Source: Bryobacterales bacterium
GTDB lineage: Bacteria; Acidobacteriota; Terriglobia; Bryobacterales; UBA6623
DNA length: 64,000 nt
Assembly: GCA_028819235.1 (NCBI GenBank)
Contig: JAPPMC010000231.1
Span: 1-64,000 of the forward strand
Reading direction: 5' to 3'
This document shows, piece by piece, positions 40,468 through 42,910 of the stretch. The position numbers were made by a program, and so were the translations under genes. The notes under the pieces are model-generated. The model ran no database searches, had not been told where the DNA came from, and saw only the letters and a program-made list of their open reading frames with translations. How positions within the stretch are numbered: the first letter of the stretch is position 1; the number at the start of each line of letters is the position of its first letter.

Positions 40468-40741
40468 GGAGGTCGAAGGACCTGGCCAAGGAGTTAGCGA
40501 GAGGGTCGCAATTTTGGAACTCGGCATCGCCTGGGCCCCGGCTGCCTCGACTTCGCGGCGGCCAGACTGGACGGCTTCGTCTCCACGGCAAAGGGGCAGG
40601 CGGCCCAGCATCGGCTCCGCCATGATTGCCACCGCCTTGTTGGAAGTTCTTCCCTACCGCTTGAGTAACGGAAGGCGGCCCAGCGGGAAGGACGTAATTC
40701 ACAGTGGTCTCAGACTCAGTGCCTCTGCGTACAGACCTTAG

Positions 40742-41908
40742 CTACCCGAAGCGTATGCAGAAGTCGCAGGCGCGTCCGAAGCGCACTTTCTTGCCCGCCT
40801 TCTTGCAATGCCCGCAACCGTGCTTCCCGAAGAACCACAGCGCTGGATCAAGGGCGGCGCACGTGCCCGAGATCCCCGATGGTCCTCCAATGTCAGCCTC
40901 TGCTACGGCACTCATCCAAGTTTCGTGAATAACAGGTTTGGCCCTCCTAAGCGGCAAGTCGCGCGTCGCGGTGACTCCAAGATTCTCAGTGGCCCGACGC
41001 ACCTGAACATCCACCGCCACCGGTACGGCCTCGATCCGATCGATCCGCGCCCGACCCGGATTCACCATCATGCGGATCCACATCGGCCCGATCTTCGGGC
41101 CTCGCAACAGCGGAAAACGATGGCGACCGCCGTTATCGCGGGACTTCTTGAGGTCCCCAAGTAGATCTTGCGCGTCACCCCGGCCAGCGTCAATCACCCG
41201 CCTCACTGGAGACTCGAGCGGGGCTCCGACGGACAAGCTCTTCGCGATCTGGTGCCACGCAATCGAGTCTGGACCATGCCTCCGGCTGACGCGCGCGGTC
41301 TTCAGCACACTGCGGAGCTCTTCGAACTCAAGCCCCGCCACATGGTGTGGATCGAAGGCCTGAGGGCGTTCTCCGTAAAGACGCATCCCTGCGTCCCAGA
41401 GTTGTGTGGCATTCCGTGCCCGGTTCATCGCCGAGATGAACGTGAGGAAGAGGCGTGCATCCCGGTCGTTCCCGCCGAGTGCCCGGACCTGCTTCGCGCA
41501 ACGAACGCTATGTAGGCGAGACGAATCCTGGCCAGTTTCGATCTCCGCCCCAAAGGAGCGCAGGCAGTGAACCGCCTCGACCTCGGGCGTGTTGAGCGAA
41601 GATTGGCCCTCCACTCGCGGCAGACTCGTCGCCGAATTCATGCCCTCAGTTGCTTCCGCCGCCTCTCTAGCCATGTTGCGCGAAGCTAAGTCGAGGCCGT
41701 CTCCGTAGAAGTCCTCCGCAATCAGCAGGGCGATGCGGCTGGCGCGGGAGCGGTCAGATGAATATCGGTCATGCACCTTACCGATCACGAGCAACTCTTG
41801 CCCCAATCTGTTCTCGATACCAAGCTTGCTGGCGTCCAACCCCTGAAATCCGTGCGAGTGGTCGATATACGGTTGCCCTCGCAACGCAGAGCCCTTCTTC
41901 GAGGCCAT
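40742..41908 (-). CDS. HhH-GPD-like (endonuclease III fold) protein with C-terminal Cys cluster
   Basis: No firm family is recognised, but the 388-residue product has the layout of an HhH-GPD DNA glycosylase. A helical region from about residue 150 ('ARLFLTFISAMNRARNATQL') leads to a hairpin-like 'PLLRGPKIGPMW' at about 267-278, then 'AVPVAVDVQVRR' at about 294-305, where D300 matches the catalytic Asp of the 'VDTH' motif. The C-terminus has C350 and then C365-x2-C368-x12-C381-x2-C384, resembling a metal or Fe-S cluster but not the classic endonuclease III spacing. It is encoded downstream of and overlapping the DUF6884 gene by 131 bases if this ATG is used; a GTG at 41776, just after the DUF6884 stop, is the alternative. 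The 274 bp between its stop and the sugar transferase hold nothing recognisable. Confidence 0.6.
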   Translation of the reverse strand: MASKKGSALRGQPYIDHSHGFQGLDASKLGIENRLGQELLVIGKVHDRYSSDRSRASRIALLIAEDFYGDGLDLASRNMAREAAEATEGMNSATSLPRVEGQSSLNTPEVEAVHCLRSFGAEIETGQDSSRLHSVRCAKQVRALGGNDRDARLFLTFISAMNRARNATQLWDAGMRLYGERPQAFDPHHVAGLEFEELRSVLKTARVSRRHGPDSIAWHQIAKSLSVGAPLESPVRRVIDAGRGDAQDLLGDLKKSRDNGGRHRFPLLRGPKIGPMWIRMMVNPGRARIDRIEAVPVAVDVQVRRATENLGVTATRDLPLRRAKPVIHETWMSAVAEADIGGPSGISGTCAALDPALWFFGKHGCGHCKKAGKKVRFGRACDFCIRFG

Positions 41909-42275
41909 ACCTAACGTAGGTTGCGCCAGCGTGGATCTCAATTAGACTGCCTCCCAGCGACGGAACGCAACTCTTCAACTCGTCTAGTACGCAAGCGGAC
42001 CAAGCCCTGCGGGCCGCAGGCCGAAGATCCCTGAGCGCGAGATCGTAGGGATCGATGCGTTCGTCAGGGGACAGCAAGCCGTGTTTCGCGCTGAGGATGA
42101 ACCACGGACAGACCAAGCTCTCGGCATAGGCCCGCCGGCAGCGCCAAAGTGGTGATCTGTACAGATCTTTCGCCGCGCTCCTCACCGCATGCTTGGTCTT
42201 CACACACCCAACTAGCACAAGGTCGGGCCGCTGCCACGACAGAATGGGAGGCTCCACTCCGTCAGGGCGGTTCAT
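41778..42275 (-). CDS. DUF6884 domain protein
   Basis: The 165-residue product matches DUF6884: 'PDLVLVGCVKTKHAVRSA' (residues 18-35), 'AKDLYRSPLWRCRRAYAES' (35-53), 'WFILSAKHGLLSPDERIDPY' (58-77) and the C-terminal 'YRPLARISGVGRQQAWY'. The biochemical function is not established; the domain is found in phage, mobile and accessory regions. It is immediately upstream of the HhH-GPD-like gene on the same strand. The ATG at 42273-42275 is preferred; the frame is open 18 codons upstream. No clear Shine-Dalgarno is visible. Confidence 0.75.
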   Translation of the reverse strand: MNRPDGVEPPILSWQRPDLVLVGCVKTKHAVRSAAKDLYRSPLWRCRRAYAESLVCPWFILSAKHGLLSPDERIDPYDLALRDLRPAARRAWSACVLDELKSCVPSLGGSLIEIHAGATYVRYGLEEGLCVARATVYRPLARISGVGRQQAWYREQIGARVARDR

Positions 42276-42910
42276 ACTGCACCAAATACGCTCAAGACTC
42301 CGGTCGCAATGCACCTCGCGGCGAGGCAAGCCGTCTGCCGACCGGCGAACGGGTGAGGGTAGTGGCTTTCTTGCGTAGTGCCGCCCTAGCGCAGGTCCGT
42401 TCTCGCCTCGGCAGTGTCAACCGCCACGCCATCTCGAGAGTATCTCAACAAGCCTAATTTGACCCGGACTTGCAAGGCCAGCTCACGCCATCATTCGGTG
42501 GCGGCGTCTTGCGTGGGCATGGCTCCGGGCGTGCTTGGCTCGTGCTTGCCTTCGCCCCTGCAGGGCGGATTCCAGCCACTCCCCTGCATTGGGAAGCGTC
42601 TGCCGATGGGGCACGCTAGAAGGGCGGGGGACGAGAACTCAAGACGGCGGCCGGCACGTCCAGCGAGAGCGGCCGAGGCCCTCCTGGTGGCGGGCGAGCG
42701 CCCGATGGCCCCAGCGTTGGACGATGCTCGCGACCCGTCGCTTTCCCGCCGCCTATGGAGCCTCAATGCTGTCAGGCTCCGGCTCCCGTCGTTGCCATTC
42801 AGGCATGGAATGGCAGTTGACCGACGATCTCCACGCGGTCTGGATGCCCGGCTGTGGCGCTGTCAGGAGGGCCCCTTGGTATGCTCGTAGGCGATCAGGA
42901 TGGGCGCTGA
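42276..42910. other. 635-bp stretch without a recognised gene
   Basis: Several open frames of 60-160 codons cross this stretch on both strands, but all have Arg/Pro/Ser-rich, non-conserved composition and no ribosome binding site. I see no RNA gene, repeat or terminator. It holds the presumed promoters of the DUF6884 gene (leftward) and of the DUF3604 gene (rightward; a TATGCT lies about 17 bases before its ATG). Confidence 0.5.

Follow-up and report, generated by a model that had tools for sequence, protein, structure and literature searches.

What do a DUF6884 protein and a presumed relative of DNA glycosylases do together when their genes lie side by side? The question is raised by two reverse-strand genes in a 64,000-nucleotide stretch of a Bryobacterales bacterium genome (contig JAPPMC010000231.1; hereafter the window). 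The preliminary description of this locus had considered the pair a possible base-modifying or base-excising system against foreign DNA, and had read the two genes as overlapping by up to 131 bases with both frames coding.

Gene boundaries at the locus

The first gene encodes a DUF6884 protein, as had been proposed, which scores 126.9 bits on Pfam PF21818, where the cut-off is 30 (E 7.7e-37; Table 1). Comparison of the window with its relative in L004 gave dN 0.21 and dS 0.91 for this gene and dN 0.25 and dS 1.2 for the glycosylase gene, values indicating that both are under purifying selection. The long overlap, in contrast, did not withstand comparison with relatives. The open reading frame originally taken for the glycosylase began at ATG 41908, and over its first 31-36 residues the similarity to relatives is confined to places where the DUF6884 frame is conserved. 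Third-position substitutions in the DUF6884 frame reached 0.40-0.43 per codon within the overlap stretch versus 0.38-0.39 outside it (window versus relatives), so that they were not suppressed, and substitutions in this stretch track the DUF6884 frame while the glycosylase frame contains stops in L003 and L004. Dual coding over 131 bases was therefore rejected as a start-site artefact. Because the two genes overlap by 4 bases in L004 and by a few bases in L118, and form a single open reading frame in L002, L003, L016 and L017, the glycosylase likely starts at GTG 41776, right after the DUF6884 stop, or at GTG 41788, which gives an overlap of 11 bases.

Table 1. Positions of the genes, motifs and insertion in the window
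Feature	Position	Strand	Remarks
DUF6884 (YaaA-like fold) gene, 165 aa	41778..42275	-	Pfam PF21818 E 7.7e-37; PADLOC PDC-M57A 1.1e-26
DUF6884 CxxxK motif (C24...K28; GCVKTK)	42192..42206	-	invariant in A4
DUF6884 LSAxxG motif (LSAKHG)	42078..42095	-	motif definition PMC11701544
HhH-GPD-like DNA glycosylase gene, about 344 aa	40742..41776	-	start GTG 41776 or 41788; conserved catalytic Lys and Asp
N-terminal extension of the glycosylase in the preliminary description	41789..41908	-	overprinted frame, probably untranslated; stops in L003, L004
Catalytic-Lys codon K228 in LRGPKIGP	41093..41095	-	invariant, 8/8 rows of A8; aligned to L102
Catalytic-Asp codon D256 in PVAVDVQVRR	41009..41011	-	invariant, 8/8 rows of A8; aligned to L102
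Cys cluster C-x2-C-x12-C-x2-C	40757..40816	-	at the place of the MutY/EndoIII [4Fe-4S] loop; putative zinc or iron-sulfur site
Insertion with the pair, about 2112 bp	40541..42652	.	absent from congener G957, flanks 86-87% identical

Relationship of the second protein to HhH-GPD glycosylases

The motifs LLRGPKIGP and VAVDVQVRR and the C-x2-C-x12-C-x2-C cluster, from which HhH-GPD features had been proposed, are present in the second protein. Taken alone, this protein matches the Pfam HhH-GPD family weakly (E 0.041; 14.6 bits versus a cut-off of 26.2) and no UDG or AAG family in Pfam, and it is through intermediates that the proposal gained support. A relative in L020, 27% identical and carrying the same LRGPKIGPxWIRM motif, matches AGOG at 4.8e-5. 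A profile of the glycosylase family finds L102 at E 1.5e-5 and nothing up to E 10 among reversed sequences. L102 is a DUF6884 domain fused to a canonical EndoIII-like domain (FQGVGPKIATMAANIL...SADVHVRRVFGRLGL, then Cx6Cx2Cx5C) that itself matches PF00730 at 1.4e-5, and its alignment to the family places GPKI over GPKI and PVAVDVQVRR over VSADVHVRR. Comparison of the family with EndoIII in hhalign yielded E 0.002 when L102 was excluded and E 6.4e-5 when it was included (score 38.4, where 50 column shuffles reached no more than 26.7), the latter value partly mirroring the EndoIII likeness of L102 itself.

At the level of residues, K228 corresponds in the alignment to the GVGPKIA/GVxRKTA Lys of EndoIII-like proteins and D256 to the VDTHVxR Asp, the arrangement of bifunctional-type HhH-GPD enzymes, with a Lys in the hairpin and an Asp after it. 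The Cys cluster is placed weakly by hhalign on that of MutY, and its spacing differs from the loop of EndoIII and MutY proper (C-x6-C-x2-C-x5-C). AlphaFold2 models of the window glycosylase and of the L003 fusion were of low confidence because relatives are too few (mean pLDDT 38 and 57, respectively). When the low-confidence L003 model was compared by VIA-align, the best rows for its glycosylase part were mostly HhH-GPD proteins with Z values of 6-8, including EndoIII (7.7), MutY (7.6), OGG1, MagIII and TAG together with the DUF2419 queuosine hydrolase (8.0), and those for its DUF6884 part included AF0587 (7.9) and YaaA (6.4), all middling values that may reflect a common arrangement. Plain Foldseek on the same low-confidence model returned nothing with E <0.3. 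No relative was found among PDB sequences by phmmer and profile searches with DUF6884 or the glycosylase, nor in IMG/VR by the glycosylase profile and motif pattern, and there was no match in NCBIfam or, for the glycosylase, in the phage and plasmid collections searched. The sequence comparisons made through intermediates support the view that the second protein is a divergent relative of the HhH-GPD glycosylases.

Recurrence and mobility of the pair

Recurrence in other genomes had been set beforehand as the point on which the proposal could fail, and the pair does recur, often fused. DUF6884 and the glycosylase occur together in at least seven loci. The genes lie next to each other in the window, L004 and L118 and are fused in L002, L003, L016 and L017 (to 484 aa in both L003 and L016); L008 has a triple fusion that adds DUF7662, and in the distant L020 they stand side by side in reversed order. 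L102 is a separate fusion of DUF6884 to an EndoIII-like domain. Both genes of L020 (1154-2302) are frameshifted, through decay or assembly error. Since no more than about 5-8% of sampled genomes contain DUF6884, the association is not due to chance. Relatives of the glycosylase are themselves rare (2 of 396 Acidobacteriota genomes, 6 of the 298 in the Gemmatimonadota set, 2/198 and 1/64 elsewhere), and the homologue set is small and consists mostly of metagenome-assembled genomes. DUF6884 and this divergent HhH-GPD glycosylase are a real pair, previously unnamed in the literature that we found.

L005 and L019 carry no DUF6884, and a gene for an Mrr_cat endonuclease instead overlaps the 3' end of the glycosylase gene, a swap suggesting that a nuclease, too, can serve as partner. 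These loci (L005 7983-9864; L019 1507-3431, with HARE-HTH plus Mrr) are a possible sister two-gene restriction cassette.

The DNA next to the pair had been described as lacking recognisable genes. Short non-coding flanks do exist, but they lie within a 2.1-kb insertion between ordinary genes, none of them defence genes. In the congener G957 the flanks join directly without positions 40541-42652, and the GC content of the insertion region dips to 0.59-0.64 versus about 0.63-0.70 in the flanks. Examination of the insertion ends gave no target-site duplication and no clear terminal repeats. Another congener, G961, has a diverged pair (L118; about 50% identical) at a different site. Genes close to relatives include HmaC and ZacC in L004, Gabija GajB together with an HNH type IV-like nuclease in L040, CAP12-TIR, an AccI-type restriction enzyme and Mrr in L005, and NACHT and DUF3800 in L008 and L038. 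In L006, next to a type I RM locus, a transposase-like remnant cuts the relative short. The insertion missing from the congener and the defence-island company of the relatives identify the pair as a mobile, defence-associated cassette. In two Gemmatimonadota genomes, a UDG-superfamily gene (PF03167, 9e-8; L003 4670-5308 and L040 5289-5927), possibly Brig-like, stands about 2-3 kb from the DUF6884-glycosylase fusion.

Other settings of DUF6884

According to the authors of Pfam, the fold of DUF6884 is a YaaA-like cantaloupe and its motifs are CxxxK and LSAxxG (PMC11701544), and a preprint reports that the domain is contained in DpdC (PMC11888242), the enzyme converting dPreQ0 to dADG (PMC12839542). 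The DUF6884 proteins of the window clade have weak matches to DpdC. Elsewhere the domain is fused to DpdA in G010 (1.3e-88), to DpdB in the phage Mx4 (5e-123) and to PDC-M57B in G517 (8e-69); it sits between TGT and a queuosine-precursor transporter in the phage phiFN37 and adjoins DpdA in HRTV-29 (PMC8651126). The G010 fusion, from Acidobacteriota, is one 584-aa frame (L103 4373-6124) in a genome that also has QueC, and in Myxococcus phage Mx4 (L035 4791-6599) the annotated start of the fusion to the DpdB/DndB-like part removes part of DUF6884. The three genes of Fusobacterium phage phiFN37 (L022 5188-7015; TGT/DpdA-like, DUF6884 and transporter) are probably a 7-deazaguanine DNA modification operon. 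What the partners of DUF6884 share is that they are enzymes whose substrate is a flipped base, and several take part in 7-deazaguanine chemistry. The link to 7-deazaguanine is not universal, however, because Caulobacter, Microbacterium and ChaoS9 phages carry DUF6884 without an adjacent DpdA and B. subtilis carries it too.

In the DUF6884 tree the window clade alone is well supported (98/94) and the deep forks are open; the glycosylase-linked rows require at least two label changes, which suggests that fusions of DUF6884 and glycosylase may have arisen independently. A well-supported group of stand-alone DUF6884 proteins from Gemmatimonadota (L106-L109 and L105), with no glycosylase next door, falls in a weakly resolved part of the tree shared with the window clade.

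Proposed function and alternatives

We tentatively propose, at somewhat less than an even chance, that the pair is a small mobile cassette for defence, which excises bases from foreign DNA and so damages it, and whose likeliest target is DNA modified with 7-deazaguanine. DUF6884 would be the base-flipping partner that recognises or chemically alters the modified base, probably enabling its removal by the glycosylase. The latter, as a bifunctional-type HhH-GPD enzyme with Lys and Asp, would excise the unusual base to leave an abasic site or nick, the Lys perhaps serving to nick the abasic site, and the damaged foreign DNA would be unable to replicate. Excision as such, its substrate, the sequence of the steps and the action against phages are inferences; a role against foreign DNA, as first envisaged, fits the mobile insertion and the defence islands near relatives. 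The most likely class of target would be phage or plasmid DNA carrying 7-deazaguanine because DUF6884 domains elsewhere form part of DpdC, occur in fusions with DpdA or DpdB, or adjoin TGT or DpdA. More specific, and doubtful in our estimation, is a type IV-like base-excision restriction in which the HhH-GPD glycosylase and the DpdC-type DUF6884 remove 7-deazaguanines from phage DNA, DUF6884 being interchangeable between the makers (DpdA/B/C) and the destroyers of the mark. Such bases shield many phage genomes from restriction (PMC6884629), and in the published literature we found no system attacking them by base excision. If this reading is correct, the pair would be a dedicated counter to the phages' widespread 7-deazaguanine anti-restriction modification, the Brig principle of a glycosylase as antiviral effector would reach the HhH-GPD superfamily, and DUF6884, of unknown function in Pfam, would gain a testable role as a substrate-handling module.

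The host genome bears on two alternatives. One is modification of the host's own DNA, with the HhH protein replacing DpdA to swap a base and DUF6884 finishing the product as DpdC does, a possibility raised by the presence of DUF6884 in DpdC (PMC11888242) and its fusions to DpdA and DpdB elsewhere. Neither QueC nor DpdA was found in the window's genome, DpdA is absent from 12 of the 12 genomes checked among carriers of the glycosylase family or the L102 fusion, and several of these have no true QueC. HhH-GPD enzymes are known for excising bases and are not known to insert them. Self-marking with 7-deazaguanine is therefore unlikely, and the target, if it is 7-deazaguanine, would be foreign; we rejected host self-modification on the lack of QueC and DpdA and regard such an exchange as scarcely probable, so that of the two activities first suggested base modification is the less likely. 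The same genome already has EndoIII- and MutY-type genes, which tells against a base-excision repair pair, in which the HhH glycosylase would, in the manner of AGOG, clear host DNA of a damaged base such as an oxidised purine and DUF6884 would handle the resulting abasic or ribo-base lesion. The AGOG link of L020 favours repair, as do the B. subtilis DUF6884 protein YfjM, reported to interact with abasic and RNA-base lesions, and the role of YaaA in the oxidative stress response (PMC11701544). Yet the pair is rare and mobile, with its insertion missing in a congener, and its relatives neighbour defence islands, and we consider repair, jointly with the part given to DUF6884, unlikely.

Two further readings start from the small mobile cassette. 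Restriction by base excision exists (PMC10273834), and a restriction glycosylase that is sequence-specific and attacks ordinary, unmodified bases, on the principle of R.PabI with an HhH fold, would suit the defence islands; but no methyltransferase or protecting enzyme stands beside the window pair, none is common to the relatives, and DUF6884 is not a methylase family, making this explanation very improbable. A toxin-antidote module, in which a genotoxic glycosylase is restrained by the DUF6884 protein until infection, would accord with a two-gene mobile cassette whose partner gene gives way to Mrr in two loci (L005, L019). That the two proteins are repeatedly fused in one chain nevertheless sits badly with a separable antidote, DUF6884 has conserved active-site-like residues as well, and we attach hardly any probability to it.

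Comparison with known systems

Among described systems, the PADLOC candidate PDC-M57 combines DUF6884 with a GIY-YIG-like protein, M57B being GIY-YIG-like by our own reading of its sequence. The window DUF6884 matches PDC-M57A (1.1e-26), but its partner is an HhH-GPD glycosylase relative with no match in PADLOC, so that the window has M57A without M57B, unlike L088, a true M57A-M57B fusion. The Dpd system for 7-deazaguanine DNA modification (DpdA/B/C) shares DUF6884 through DpdC (PMC11888242) and differs in its DpdA, which was found in none of the carriers tested, the host moreover lacking QueC. With the repair glycosylases AGOG, EndoIII and MutY the second protein has in common the catalytic Lys and Asp, the HhH motif and a C-terminal Cys cluster, whereas it falls below the family cut-off (14.6 versus 26.2 bits), spaces its cysteines otherwise, is coupled to DUF6884 and is mobile. 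DUF2419 (Qng1) ranked first, level with EndoIII, in the fold comparison of the glycosylase part (Z 8.0, low-confidence model), and as a DNA-glycosylase-like hydrolase of 7-deazaguanine nucleosides offers a precedent for cleavage of the glycosidic bond (PMC9406330), although it acts on the free nucleoside or nucleotide and has no sequence match to the window protein. Brig1 and Brig3-BapA are anti-phage DNA glycosylases that, like relatives of the window protein, occur in defence islands (PMC11078745, PMC13160076), and Brig3-BapA, in whose overlapping two-gene operon the partner gene broadens the substrate range, is a precedent for a glycosylase and a base-processing partner in one operon (PMC13160076); Brig1, however, is a member of the UDG superfamily and the fold of Brig3 is AAG-like, whereas the window protein is HhH-GPD-like and has DUF6884 as its partner.
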